Part shown: one piece after another, positions 20,503-63,229 of the stretch | How positions within the stretch are numbered: position 1 is the stretch's first letter | How the letters are laid out: each line of letters opens with the position of its first letter | Assembly: GCF_039621855.1 (NCBI RefSeq) | Contig: NZ_CP155071.1 | Coordinates: 1,612,001 to 1,676,000, forward strand | Reading direction: 5' to 3' | Length of the DNA stretch: 64,000 nucleotides | Origin: Erwinia sp. HDF1-3R | Lineage (GTDB): Bacteria > Pseudomonadota > Gammaproteobacteria > Enterobacterales > Enterobacteriaceae | Made by a program: the position numbers and the translations under genes | The notes under the pieces: generated by a model | What the model saw: the letters and a program-made list of their open reading frames with translations, nothing else | Databases searched by the model: none | What the model was told of the DNA's origin: nothing

Positions 20503-20578
20503 GGGTCGTTAGCTCAGTTGGTAGAGCAGTTGACTTTTAATCAATTGGTCGCAGGTTCGAATCCTGCACGACCCACCA
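20503..20578 (+). tRNA. tRNA-Lys (anticodon TTT), copy 1
   Basis: A complete 76-base cloverleaf from GGGTCGT to ACGACCCACCA. It has a D-arm (GCTCAGTTGGTAGAGC), an anticodon arm TTGA-CTTTTAA-TCAA with anticodon TTT, and a T-arm GCAGGTTCGAATCCTGC. The CCA end is encoded. As far as I recall it is identical to E. coli tRNA-Lys. Confidence 0.98.
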
Positions 20579-20613
20579 CTATCAGATAGTAACAGGCAGT
20601 ACACCGCTTCAGC

Positions 20614-20689
20614 GGGTCGTTAGCTCAGTTGGTAGAGCAGTTGACTTTTAATCAATTGGTCGCAGGTTCGAATCCTGCACGACCCACCA
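20614..20689 (+). tRNA. tRNA-Lys (anticodon TTT), copy 2
   Basis: Identical in all 76 bases to copy 1, with encoded CCA. The 35-base spacer before it (20579-20613) is repeated before copy 3 with only two base changes, so the array grew by duplication of a 111-bp unit. Confidence 0.98.
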
Positions 20690-20724
20690 CTATCAGGTAA
20701 TAACAGGCAGTACACCGCTTCAGC

Positions 20725-20800
20725 GGGTCGTTAGCTCAGTTGGTAGAGCAGTTGACTTTTAATCAATTGGTCGCAGGTTCGAATCCTGCACGACCCACCA
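20725..20800 (+). tRNA. tRNA-Lys (anticodon TTT), copy 3
   Basis: Third identical 76-base copy with encoded CCA, last of the array. A rho-independent terminator begins within ten bases of its end. In E. coli the same position between cpoB and nadA holds seven alternating Lys and Val tRNA genes; no Val tRNA is present here. Confidence 0.98.
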
Positions 20801-22559: not shown

Positions 22560-23096
22560 GTGAGTATGATGAATTACTTCTTTAAAAGGATATCTTCACC
22601 GGTGGGTGAGCTGACGGCGATCGCCAGCGACAGAGGGCTGGCGGCGGTACTGTGGGAAAATGAAAACCCTAAGCGTGTCCGGCAGATGTCGCCGCAGGAG
22701 GATCCCACGCATCCGGTACTGCTGGAGACGGCGCGACAGCTTAACGAGTATTTTTCCGGTGAGCGTACCCGTTTTAGCCTGCCTCTCGATTTTGTCGGCA
22801 CCGATTTTCAGAAAAAGGTGTGGCAGGCGCTACTGGACATCCCCTTTGGTGAAACCCGCAGCTATGCGCAGATTGCCCGTCAAATCGGCCACCCTGCGGC
22901 GGTGCGCGCAGTGGGCGCGGCCAATGGAAAAAACCCAATCTCAATCATTGCCGCCTGTCACCGTGTGATCGGTGCCAATGGCAAACTGACGGGTTTTGCT
23001 GGCGGGCTTGAGGTCAAGGCGCTGCTGCTACGACTTGAAGCCACCCACTATGGTGATTCAGGCAGCCTGCTGAGCCCTGCCCACACCGGAGAATAA
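22560..23096 (+). CDS. ogt: Methylated-DNA--protein-cysteine S-methyltransferase
   Basis: O6-alkylguanine repair protein of 178 residues that transfers the alkyl group to its own cysteine. The active site is Cys133 in AACHRVIGANG, where the usual PCHRV proline is alanine. The DNA-binding segment SYAQIARQIGHPAAVRAVGAANGKNP is intact. The start is uncertain: GTG 22560, ATG 22566 and ATG 22569 are all in frame and close together. The gene diverges from the Ada-AlkA fusion with about 210 bp between. No clear Ada box or LexA box was seen in that gap. Confidence 0.93.
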   Translation: MSMMNYFFKRISSPVGELTAIASDRGLAAVLWENENPKRVRQMSPQEDPTHPVLLETARQLNEYFSGERTRFSLPLDFVGTDFQKKVWQALLDIPFGETRSYAQIARQIGHPAAVRAVGAANGKNPISIIAACHRVIGANGKLTGFAGGLEVKALLLRLEATHYGDSGSLLSPAHTGE

Positions 23097-23099
23097 CTT

Positions 23100-23289
23100 A
23101 TTGCGAGCGGGAAGCAGCCCATACCGGCAAATAATGCATTGCGAGCGGGAAGCAGCCCACACCGGCAAACAATGCATTGCGAGCGGGAAGCAGCCCACAC
23201 CGGCAAACAATGCATTGCGAGCGGGAAACTGCCCTCAGCCGCAAATATTTCACTGCGAGACGGAGCAGGCCCCTCTCGCCACAGATGAA
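23100..23289 (+). repeat. 38-bp tandem repeat array between ogt and nadA
   Basis: Five consecutive 38-bp units start at 23100, 23138, 23176, 23214 and 23252. Units 2 and 3 are identical, unit 1 differs at two positions, unit 4 at several and unit 5 is strongly decayed. Each starts ATTGCGAGCGGGAAGCAGCC or a variant. The copies are directly adjacent without spacers, so this is not a CRISPR. The period is not a multiple of three, and frames through it have no ribosome binding site, so it is not coding. The array fills most of the 319 bases between the two genes. Confidence 0.95.
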
Positions 23290-55000: not shown

Positions 55001-56095
55001 ATGATCCGTTCCCCCCTGAAGCGCGGACTGCTGCTGGCACTGCTGGTGCTGGCAGGCTGTAGCAGCCAGCCGCACAAAAACCTTCCCGAGCGGCGGCCCG
55101 CCGACGTCAAAGCGCAGATTGTCCGGCTGATCCCCGCCGGAGTGAACGACAGGCAGGGCTGGGCAAACGATATCTTTGCCGCCTTCAACAGCCAGGGCAT
55201 TGATGCGTCCCCCGACAATCTCTGTGCGGTCATTGCGGTGACCGATCAGGAGTCCAACTTCAATGTAGATGCCACGGTGGCGGGCTTGCCTAAAATCGCC
55301 TGGGGTGAGATTGACCGGCGCGCCGCCAGCCTGCATATTCCAGCCTTTGTGGTCCGTACCGCGCTGATGATTAACTCACCCAGCGGAAAAAGCTACGCCT
55401 GGCGGCTGGATCACGTACGCAGTGAAAAAGAGCTAAGCGCCATTTTCGATGACTTTATCAATATGGCCCCGATGGGACAGAGGCTGTTTGGCAATCTGAA
55501 CCCTATCCATACCGGTGGGCCGATGCAGGTGAGTATTGACTTCGCGGAGGCGCAGTCAAAAGGCTACCCTTATCCGGTCGACGGCACGCTGCGCCATGAG
55601 GTATTTACCCGGCGCGGCGGAGTCTGGTTTGGCACCCGCCACCTGCTGGGGTATCCCACCCACTACAGCAGGCCGCTCTATCGCTTTGCCGATTTCAATG
55701 CGGGCTGGTACGCCAGCCGCAACGCGGCTTTCCAGGCCGCGGTGGCGCAGCTGACCGGCATTAAGCTGGCGCTGGATGGCGATGTGATCCGCTATGGTAC
55801 AGACACGCCGGGTGCCACTGAGCTGGCCGTCCGTACCCTGAGCAGGCAGCTGGACATGAGCAATAGCAGTATCCGGCGCGCGCTGGAGCAGGGGGAAACC
55901 CTGGCATTTGAGAAAAGCGCGCTGTGGGAGAAGGTGTTCACCCTGGCTGATAAAAATGCCGGCGTGCGCCTGCCGCGTGAAAGGCTGCCCGGCATCCAGC
56001 TGGAAAGCCCGAAAATCACCCGTAATCTCACCACCGCCTGGTATGCCCAGCGGGTCGACGGACGCTATCAACGCTGTCTGACGCGGGCGAAATAG
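55001..56095 (+). CDS. DUF1615 lipoprotein, YaiW-like
   Basis: A 364-residue lipoprotein with signal and lipobox LAGC (Cys20) followed by Ser-Ser, which predicts outer-membrane sorting. The mature part contains AVIAVTDQESNFNVD and GPMQVSIDFAEAQSKGYPYP, matching the DUF1615 family represented by E. coli YaiW, a surface lipoprotein linked to SbmA-dependent peptide uptake. The glutamate in DQESNF resembles a lysozyme-like fold, but activity is unproven. The gene starts 15 bp after moaE behind AAGGAAAG, so it probably rides on the moa transcript, unlike E. coli where yaiW is elsewhere. Confidence 0.88.
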   Translation: MIRSPLKRGLLLALLVLAGCSSQPHKNLPERRPADVKAQIVRLIPAGVNDRQGWANDIFAAFNSQGIDASPDNLCAVIAVTDQESNFNVDATVAGLPKIAWGEIDRRAASLHIPAFVVRTALMINSPSGKSYAWRLDHVRSEKELSAIFDDFINMAPMGQRLFGNLNPIHTGGPMQVSIDFAEAQSKGYPYPVDGTLRHEVFTRRGGVWFGTRHLLGYPTHYSRPLYRFADFNAGWYASRNAAFQAAVAQLTGIKLALDGDVIRYGTDTPGATELAVRTLSRQLDMSNSSIRRALEQGETLAFEKSALWEKVFTLADKNAGVRLPRERLPGIQLESPKITRNLTTAWYAQRVDGRYQRCLTRAK

Positions 56096-56152
56096 CGCAG
56101 TGATACGCCCGGCCACAGGCGAGCGAAATAGCGCGGTGATACGCCCGGCCAC
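56087..56152 (+). repeat. 30-bp direct duplication across the 3' end of the YaiW-like gene
   Basis: A 30-base segment starting GCGAAATAGCGCAGTGATAC (56087-56116) is repeated at 56123-56152 with one mismatch, a period of 36 bp. The first copy contains the stop codon of the gene; the second lies just beyond it. Confidence 0.9.
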
Positions 56153-59325: not shown

Positions 59326-60291
59326 TCAGGTCTTTTGCATCGCCTGCTGGTTTTTCTGCCGCAGGCCTTTCGCGCGGCTCTCCAGCCACAGATAAAGCAC
59401 CAGCGCCAGCAGCAGCGGGGCGATAAAATAGATCACCCGGTAGGCGAGCAGCGCCGCAATAATCGCGCCGTGAGTGAGGTGCTCACCGCTCAGCAGTGCT
59501 AGGAATACCGCTTCCAGCACGCCGATCCCGGCTGGGATATGAATAATCACCCCCGCGATACTGCTGATCAGCAGCACGCCCAGCACCTGCGGGTAATCCA
59601 CTCTCTGCCCCAGCAGGAGCCAGATAATAGCGCCCATGACCAGCCAGTTTGCGCTGGATACGCTGAACTGTAGCAGGGCCATACGCAGAGAGGGGAGTGC
59701 CAGCGTATGGCCCTTTACCGTCCAGCGCCGCCGGCGTGAAAAAGCGCAAAATGCCAGATAGACCAGCACAAACGCCAGCAGGCAGACGCCTGTCGCTCTA
59801 AGCGTGCCTTCCCCAATAAACCAGCCTGACGGGACAGGCACCAGACCCATACTGAACACCACGCCCGCCACCAGCACGTAGCCCAGCCAGTTGGTGGCGA
59901 TGCTGAGCGAAAAAATACGCGTAATAGTGCTGCCGTCCAGCCCCAGCCGTGAGTAAAGGCGATAGCGCATCGCCACGCCGCCAACCCAGGTACTGAGCGT
60001 CAGATTAAAGGCATAGCAGATAAAGGAGACCAGCATCACCTGGCGCTTTTGCAAACGATGCCCGCAGTAGGCCTGACCAATCAGGTCGTACACGCCGTAG
60101 GTCAGATAGCTGACGATCACCAGCGCGACCGAGGAGAGAATGGCCAGCCGGTTATAGTGGGTGATCACCTCTGCCACATCGTGCCAGTTGACCTTACGGG
60201 CATAAATCACCAGCAGCACAACCACGGCGACAAAAAACAGCCCGGTGAGGATCTTCTTTATCCACCGCCAGCGAGGGTGCGAATCTGACAT
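59326..60291 (-). CDS. ybhN: Lysylphosphatidylglycerol-synthase-TM-like membrane protein YbhN
   Basis: A 321-residue integral membrane protein (E. coli YbhN 318) with about eight helices, of the UPF0104 family that resembles the flippase part of MprF. SYLTYGVYDLIGQAYCGHRL and NLTLSTWVGGVAMRYRLYSRLG are conserved, as is IPAGIGVLEAVFLALL. Its ATG overlaps the clsB TGA by one base, so it is coupled to cardiolipin synthesis. A lipid-transport role is an inference from family and context. Confidence 0.92.
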   Translation of the reverse strand: MSDSHPRWRWIKKILTGLFFVAVVVLLVIYARKVNWHDVAEVITHYNRLAILSSVALVIVSYLTYGVYDLIGQAYCGHRLQKRQVMLVSFICYAFNLTLSTWVGGVAMRYRLYSRLGLDGSTITRIFSLSIATNWLGYVLVAGVVFSMGLVPVPSGWFIGEGTLRATGVCLLAFVLVYLAFCAFSRRRRWTVKGHTLALPSLRMALLQFSVSSANWLVMGAIIWLLLGQRVDYPQVLGVLLISSIAGVIIHIPAGIGVLEAVFLALLSGEHLTHGAIIAALLAYRVIYFIAPLLLALVLYLWLESRAKGLRQKNQQAMQKT

Positions 60292-61697
60292 CAGCGCTTC
60301 ACCTTTTCGTTCTCAGGCTTCACAATCTCATGCTCATGCTCATGCTCATGCTCATGCTCATGCTCATGCTCATGCTCATGCTCATGCTCATGCTCATGCT
60401 CAGGTTTCACCGTTTTATGCTCATGTTCAATTTTGATGGTTTTATGCTCCGGTTTGACGCGATCCTGGGTTTCCAGCTCGCTTTGTACCGGGGAGTCAGC
60501 CTGATCCGATTTCGCGGGCGCGGTAACCTGCGCCAGCTTTGGCGTATGGGCGGGCAGCCAGCCTGCAATCGCCGGGAAATGGCGCAGGAAGTGAAACACC
60601 AGCATGCTCTTCATAAACTGCCAGCCGTTTTTCTTCGGCAGTTCGCTTTTCTGCACGCGTCGGCAGTCCTGGGTCAGCAGATGATTCAGCGTGCCGCGCA
60701 TGACCTCGTTAAAGGTGCGGTCGTGGATCATCAGGTTGGCTTCCAGATTCAGTGACAGGCTTAGCGGGTCAAGGTTGCTGGAGCCAACGGTAGACCAGTG
60801 GGTATCCTGCACGGCAATTTTGGCGTGCAGTGGGCGCCGGGTGTATTCATAAATCTCCACGCCGCCTTCGACCAGAAAGTTATACAGCAGCTCGGCACCC
60901 GTCTTCACAATCGGCATATCCGGCTCGCCCTGCACGACAAGCTTAACGGAAACGCCGCGCTGAGCAGCGTTGCGCATCTCGCGCAGCAGGCGGTAGCCGG
61001 GGAAAAAGTAGGCGTTAGCGATAATCACCTCATTTTTGGCCTCGCGCAGCATATCAATATAGTGCTGTTCTATATCGTCACGATGCTCGTCATTGTCGCG
61101 CCAGACAAACAGGACCTGAGCGTCGCCGGGTTTGGTGTTTTGCGCCGAACGATGGGAGCGCCCCCCCCACCAGCGGCGCGTGACCTGTTCGCTGTTGATA
61201 GCCTGCTGCACAAACAGGGCAATGTCCTCAACGATCGGACCTTTCACCTCAACGGCATAATCCTGTTTGGCTGCCGGACCATAGCTGGTGTTGTGTTCCG
61301 AGGAGAAATTGATACCGCCGACGAAGGCAATCTCATTATCGCAAACGACGATTTTACGATGCAGGCGTCGGAAGATATTGGTGCGCATGCCTAGCACCAG
61401 CGGGCGGGGATCGTAATAGATAAAGCGTACGCCCGCGGCGGTTAGCTGGTGGATAAAGTTTTCCGACAGATTATTGGAGCCATAGCCGTCCAGCAGCATT
61501 TCGACTCTCACGCCGCGCTTTGCCGCATCATAAACCACCTGATGCAGTTCATTACCGACCTCATCCTCAAAGAGGATAAAGCTTTCAAGCAGCACGCTGC
61601 TTTTCGCCCGACGAATGGCCTCAAACACGCGGGGAAAATAGTTTTCACCATTCTCCAGCAGTTTCAGCCGATTACCTTCACGCCAATGCATTTTCAT
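60291..61697 (-). CDS. clsB: Cardiolipin synthase B with a His-Glu repeat tail
   Basis: Phospholipase D superfamily enzyme that joins phospholipids to cardiolipin at the inner membrane. Both HKD motifs are intact: [16 protein letters not shown] in the first half and [18 protein letters not shown] in the second. The protein has 468 residues, about 55 more than E. coli ClsB (413). The core ends around ETQDRVKP. The extra tail (415-468) has EHKTIK and EHKTVK repeats, then PE(HE)12IVKP at 432-461 and a final basic ENEKVKR. The tail is encoded by a pure hexanucleotide repeat. The gene overlaps ybhP by 4 bp and ybhN by 1 bp. Confidence 0.95.
60327..60398 (+). repeat. (CTCATG)12 hexanucleotide microsatellite inside clsB
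   Basis: Twelve perfect CTCATG units run without interruption for 72 bp, followed by a thirteenth altered unit (CTCAGG). On the minus strand each unit encodes His-Glu. Because the unit is two codons, gain or loss of copies changes tail length but keeps the frame, including the downstream stop and coupling to ybhN. Confidence 0.98.
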
Positions 61698-63066: not shown

Positions 63067-63111
63067 AAAGCCATTTTACGACTTCATGCTACTGCATCAG
63101 ACCTCATCCCC

Positions 63112-63229
63112 CCGCTAACGTTTACACCTCGCTGCATAAGCCTTATCACCTCCGCTAACGTTTCCACTCGCTGCATAAGCCTGATCACCCCTGCGAGCGT
63201 TTATACCTCGCTGCATAGGATCTCACCCT
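63112..63229 (+). repeat. Degenerate 40-bp tandem repeat upstream of rhlE
   Basis: Three units of about 40 bp begin at 63112, 63152 and 63191, each with the core CTCGCTGCATAAGCCT or a variant preceded by CGCTAACGTTT or GCGAGCGTTT. A fourth, badly decayed unit may precede them at 63073. The interval 63033-63492 holds this repeat, the ybhQ terminator and the rhlE promoter; no gene is supported there. Confidence 0.8.

Follow-up and report, generated by a model that had tools for sequence, protein, structure and literature searches.

Background

A pure hexanucleotide repeat within a coding sequence has been described in Erwinia amylovora, in which the gene of a SAM-dependent methyltransferase carries 3–15 AACAAT units; on that account, a coding hexamer of variable length is already known in this species (PMC10587187). 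Short repeats with slippage-type length changes also characterize the phase-variable contingency loci described in Haemophilus (PMC7015867) and Neisseria (PMC7371114), and, according to the former source, E. coli K-12 lacks pentanucleotide repeats and has just three hexanucleotide ones. The alternating His-Glu sequence also occurs in man-made molecules, namely (HE)3 tags (PMC6599047) and HE model peptides (PMC11938343), which do not imply any natural function. The gene considered here, clsB, belongs to an operon named ybhP-clsB-ybhN in the cited Salmonella work (PMC9241728).

In a 64,000-nt stretch of DNA (the window), the gene of cardiolipin synthase B (ClsB) was found to contain a CATGAG array encoding His-Glu pairs. 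As far as the cited report describes the E. amylovora repeat, the two are alike in being pure, in-frame, strain-variable coding hexamers in what appears to be the same genus, but the former encodes poly-Asn in a genomic-island gene, whereas the clsB array belongs to a membrane-lipid gene of a different species, whose genome is array-rich, and specifies His-Glu. The array shares a short repeat and slippage-type length change with the contingency loci, as these are described in the two sources, but its 6-nt unit keeps the frame, so that no on/off switch results. A search of the open-licence literature found no report of a tandem repeat in a cardiolipin synthase of Erwinia, a weak indication that the locus is unreported. 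We consider it highly probable that the array is a hypermutable in-frame coding microsatellite in the C-terminal tail of a ClsB that is otherwise ordinary, located at a length-tolerant site, and that the tail length is near-neutral.

The clsB locus and its hexamer array

The features of the locus are as follows.

59326–60291, minus strand: ybhN, named by position and domain, with an LPG_synthase_TM domain (MprF-like flippase domain)
60289–60293, minus strand: TGATG, the clsB stop overlapping the ybhN start, an overlap shared by most loci compared
60291–61697, minus strand: clsB, cardiolipin synthase B, 468 aa (ORF; NF008427; PLDc_2)
60294–60311, minus strand: the last six usual codons of clsB, here NEKVKR, containing AAAAGGTGAAG
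60312–60446, minus strand: the whole insert, approximately residues 418–462, composed of degenerate 27-nt units and the hexamer array (exact borders estimated)
60327–60402, minus strand: the perfect (CATGAG)12.7 array, with twelve His-Glu pairs at residues 434–457 (codons 60327–60398)
60399–60404, minus strand: the variant unit CCTGAG, one base off (Pro432-Glu433), which adjoins the 5′ end of the array in the mRNA sense and is missing from the genome G147

Apart from its tail, the enzyme shows the usual features of its family. ClsB scored 674 bits against NF008427, an NCBIfam equivalog model with a cut-off of 281 bits, over residues 1–401. Its two HKD motifs (H113/K115/D120 and H291/K293/D298) are intact and were invariant among the 38 sequences of alignment A1. 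The window ClsB resembles the ClsB of Enterobacterales in its NF008427 membership, both HKD motifs, the overlapping ybhN-like gene, the upstream endonuclease/exonuclease/phosphatase-like ORF (whose scores were below the model cut-offs) and its last residues. It differs in possessing approximately 45 extra residues before the last six, together with a second, smaller extra stretch around KSDQADS, located upstream. The protein appears otherwise ordinary and is presumably a working enzyme. For ybhN, the LPG_synthase_TM domain scored 53 bits against a Pfam cut-off of 33.4 bits, and the NCBIfam MprF model remained under its cut-off. The stop/start overlap of the two genes (TGATG or TAATG) was present in 44 of the 46 loci L009–L054, a count that takes in the window and a few near-duplicate genomes; L012 and L050 were the exceptions. 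The sequence AAAAGGTGAAG within the last codons of clsB is likely to be the ribosome-binding site for ybhN.

Read on the plus strand, the array was identified in the window by TRF as (CTCATG)12.7 with a 100% match. On the minus strand, twelve CAT GAG codon pairs encode H434–E457 of the 468-aa ORF, confirming the original prediction that CTCATG units give rise to a (His-Glu)12 run at this position of ClsB. No other site in the 4.85-Mb genome possesses at least three consecutive CTCATG units. With its pure tandem unit of 3n nt within an ORF, the array has the structure of a VNTR or microsatellite. Decayed relatives of the unit had also been proposed in the earlier tail segments, and these are real: TRF detected a degenerate 27-nt unit at 60390–60449 (2.2 copies, 81% match), and the parts preceding the array can be read as older copies of this unit. 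A chance origin of the array was excluded because no perfect hexamer run of at least three copies occurred in 400 kb of G021, a related genome. An antisense ORF encoding (Met-Leu)n at 60330–60755 on the plus strand was taken as a mere complement of the array.

Comparison with the tails of relatives placed the insert between the conserved ETQDRV(KPE) and the terminal NEKVKR. The end of the window ClsB accordingly runs ETQDRVKPE, 16 further residues, (HE)12IVKPE and NEKVKR-stop, with estimated residue limits, and the tail is probably disordered. Among the enterobacterial relatives, most ClsB proteins terminate near residue 414 with ...PVQPEMETQDRV followed by approximately eight residues, the last of which are often VKP, VKS or AKS. 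The statement that E. coli ClsB stops about where the tail begins was therefore correct with respect to length, which is approximately 413–414 aa for the E. coli type, but the idea of a tail added after this end was ruled out, because the usual terminal residues NEKVKR-stop follow the repeat.

Comparison with a second strain

A codon-pattern search of 37 genus genomes, which misses shorter runs, found at least four consecutive His-Glu pairs in two genomes only, this one and G147 of the same species. These two genomes constitute the species sample, and G147 is a draft of approximately 70 contigs. In G147, the array consists of five pure units with no CCTGAG, versus 12 pure units and CCTGAG here. 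The clsB length difference is exactly 48 nt, or eight units, in frame, and the G147 ClsB has 452 aa. The region around the array is otherwise approximately 99% identical between the strains. In clsB, the 1293 nt that precede the array showed three synonymous and no non-synonymous differences, the last 36 nt of clsB are the same in both strains, and ybhN showed nine synonymous and no non-synonymous differences. With this purifying pattern in clsB between the two strains, the ClsB protein looks conserved while its tail length moves. The slippage-type, in-frame length variation that had been anticipated was thus observed: between the two genomes, the copy number differs and the frame is kept, as in a VNTR, and the array, with a 6-nt unit within an ORF and its frame intact in both genomes, is not of the on/off phase-variable type. 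Comparison of the whole window with G147 revealed eight indels of at least 3 nt. Five of these lie in tandem arrays listed by TRF, and the clsB indel is the largest.

An error of assembly or sequencing, in either genome or in both, could underlie the strain difference, since the comparison relies on assembled sequences, one of them a draft. However, G147 carries other arrays of 11.6–11.7 copies, which are longer by flank distance than the same-place arrays here, arguing against a simple collapse in its assembly. The CCTGAG variant is also gone in G147, although a simple collapse of identical units would not remove a variant, and the frame is kept. We regard an artefact as hardly probable.

Other tandem repeats of the window were also noted. 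Three tRNA-Lys genes, repeated in tandem every 111 nt, are located at 20503–20800, with a 30-nt difference from G147 inside. Tandem repeats of 38, 36 and 39 nt occur at 23079–23259, 56083–56152 and 63092–63217, respectively; at each of them, the two strains differ by an indel that is one unit long.

Predicted RNA structure of the array

The array might instead act in cis at the RNA level: self-complementary CAUG units would form a hairpin, and its length would adjust the translation of clsB-ybhN or the stability of the mRNA. The predicted fold of the array had a free energy of −32.2 kcal/mol (z = −3.64), which none of 200 shuffles matched, and z was −2.73 with the ybhN start included. Each unit added approximately 3.3 kcal/mol of stability. 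The strength of this hairpin results from the palindromic nature of CATG. In contrast, the predicted openness at the ybhN start, scored over a region one base off the ATG, was 0.45–0.57 for n = 0–15; masking of the ybhN start was ruled out because the openness of the start region barely depends on n. Of the 12 array units, 4 contain a palindromic 4-mer, a proportion close to that expected by chance (0.27–0.42), which ruled out a preference for palindromic units for the sake of hairpins. Folded as DNA, the array was no better than shuffles, and translating ribosomes would be expected to open the hairpin. A regulatory role of the RNA is very unlikely in our estimation, and the coding microsatellite is the reading followed below.

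Short arrays elsewhere in the genome and genus

Perfect arrays with 5–8-nt units and at least four copies were counted in 864 kb of this genome (400 kb sampled, the window and another 400 kb, about a fifth of the genome). Thirteen were found, two of which are copies within one dispersed element (L127). One G147 contig contained five such arrays at four places in 400 kb, clsB included. There were none in 400 kb of G021, and two in total across 100 kb each of G030, G028, G002 and G033. The difference between 13 arrays in 864 kb and two in 800 kb of the five other genus members gave a binomial P of 0.006. This value was unchanged without the non-randomly chosen window (12 vs 2, 800 kb each; P = 0.006), and P was 0.011 when the L127 arrays were also counted once (11 vs 2). 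G028 and G002 each possess one array of more than 10 copies. The array wealth is a matter of degree, as other Erwinia species are also above zero; still, the genome looks rich in 5–8-nt repeats for an enterobacterium.

Between this genome and G147, length differed at six of the seven arrays compared. The seven were not a random choice, four having been picked as long here and three as long in G147, so that which strain appears longer depends in part on how the arrays were selected. An in-frame hexamer encoding Ser-Ala has 11 units here versus three in G147, and an in-frame hexamer encoding Pro-Met in a tmcA-like gene has 7.5 copies here versus 3.0. The GCTGAC/T, CCAGACT and TATCAG arrays are longer in G147 by 36, 14 and 18 nt, respectively, measured flank to flank, and (CTTCATG)7 has seven units in both strains. 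The original prediction had singled out ClsB. This emphasis does not fit the many other 5–8-nt arrays, nor the strain difference at two more in-frame gene hexamers. The clsB array is one of many hypermutable 5–8-nt arrays in this genome, and their frequency rules out a ClsB-specific origin.

Some further details of these loci were recorded. The Ser-Ala run is located at L129:4947–5672 on the minus strand (G000:C1 ~3944947–3945672), in the apparent signal peptide of a protein that lacks an NCBIfam match, and the locus had no match in six other genus genomes. The tmcA-like gene at L164:8000–10315 (minus strand) scored under the cut-off of the tRNA-Met cytidine acetyltransferase model. The (CTTCATG)7 array at L131:1156 (G000:C1 ~4421156) is flanked on each side by the 3′ end of one of two convergent ORFs. 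L127:9600–10700 belongs to a large dispersed repeat family with 145 matches in G147 and none in G021, and both of the copies here carry (CAGCTAAC)6.4 arrays.

Proposed origin of the array

As an explanation for the insert, we propose that a segment of approximately 27 nt near the clsB end was duplicated first, and that the CATGAG hexamer inside the duplicated segment then expanded by slipped-strand mispairing. As each unit has 6 nt, units could be gained or lost without disturbing the frame, the C-terminus in its usual form or the overlap of clsB with ybhN, and selection would for this reason tolerate the change in length. From the sequences compared, we infer that slippage was the process, in what order the events took place and that the tail length is near-neutral. 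Because comparable expansions occur in unrelated proteins, no cause specific to ClsB is needed. Bacterial mismatch repair fixes loops of up to approximately 3–4 nt and 6-nt slips mostly escape it; thus, no mutator is needed either. With regard to mutS and sbcC, the two repair genes surveyed, an obvious repair defect was rejected, as both are open and over the model cut-offs in all six genomes searched.

The array is a striking, probably near-neutral coding microsatellite whose strain difference is seen in two assemblies. It offers a clean natural case of a length-variable, frame-safe repeat in a membrane-lipid gene, a ready marker for strain typing and, in its natural range of (HE)n lengths, a means of asking whether low-complexity tails are of consequence. 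If the tail length proves to alter the ClsB output, the array would represent a graded alternative to on/off phase variation.

ClsB ends in relatives and a possible function of the tail

The tail may alternatively be an adaptive, tunable arm whose (His-Glu)n stretch binds Zn, Ni or Cu, or alters its charge at around pH 6. Such an arm would modulate ClsB at the membrane, and slippage would set its length. A metal or pH function of the HE run is chemically possible, but the analysis produced no evidence for it. The twelve His-Glu pairs form a His-rich stretch as would be expected of a metal-binding tail, and the length of (His-Glu)n differs between strains. In the reported data for a synthetic His-Glu peptide, Kd values of 1.25e-4, 1.88e-5 and 1.49e-7 can be assigned to Mn(II), Fe(II) and Zn(II), respectively, if the column order is as we read it, giving a Kd of ~1.5e-7 for Zn(II) (PMC11938343); (HE)3 tags are reported to have been labelled with [99mTc]Tc(CO)3 (PMC6599047).

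Comparison of ClsB C-termini across relatives argues against such an arm. When 147 genomes were searched at the protein level, close ClsB orthologues of 407–416 aa were obtained from 28 of the 35 other genus genomes, and none of these 28 tails, all of which were read, contains an HE run. HEHE, HEH and EHE were also absent from the last 90 residues of the 71 readable ends among 72 loci outside the own genome; L072 is frameshifted, and 43 of the 72 came from a related-locus search that reached relatives in Pseudomonas and Burkholderia. The 18 further family loci likewise showed no HE run (L093 and L094 repeat genomes of the 72-locus set, and L110 is a broken copy). The HE run is thus absent from every readable ClsB end examined outside the species, and the conservation in orthologues expected of a functional His-rich metal-binding tail was not found, the same-species G147 having a shorter run. 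The ClsB comparison gave no sign of selection for metal binding. In addition, similar expansions are present in unrelated proteins with unrelated residues (Ser-Ala and Pro-Met). A sub-micromolar affinity for zinc is weak beside the buffered zinc of the cytosol, which also counts against a metal-binding arm.

An adaptive tail could look the same as a neutral one in two genomes, and we assign the tunable arm a small chance. The same idea may be extended to the 6-nt arrays as species-wide rheostats, in which slippage would vary the metal- or pH-sensitive ClsB arm together with the Ser-Ala and Pro-Met arms, and the population would hold graded activities rather than on/off states. This extension we consider a slim prospect. 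The near-neutral microsatellite at a length-tolerant site agrees with the ClsB of Buttiauxella agrestis (L044/L094; 428 aa), which has a 14-residue insert at the same spot as the window insert, indicating that this site of ClsB tolerates length.

Two minor observations concern the relatives. A 456-aa ClsB relative from a Burkholderiaceae MAG (L077) ends in a stretch with many His, Asp and Glu residues; along with the Buttiauxella insert, this independent resemblance comes closest to the HE tail. The protein search found no close ClsB orthologue in seven of the 35 other genus genomes.
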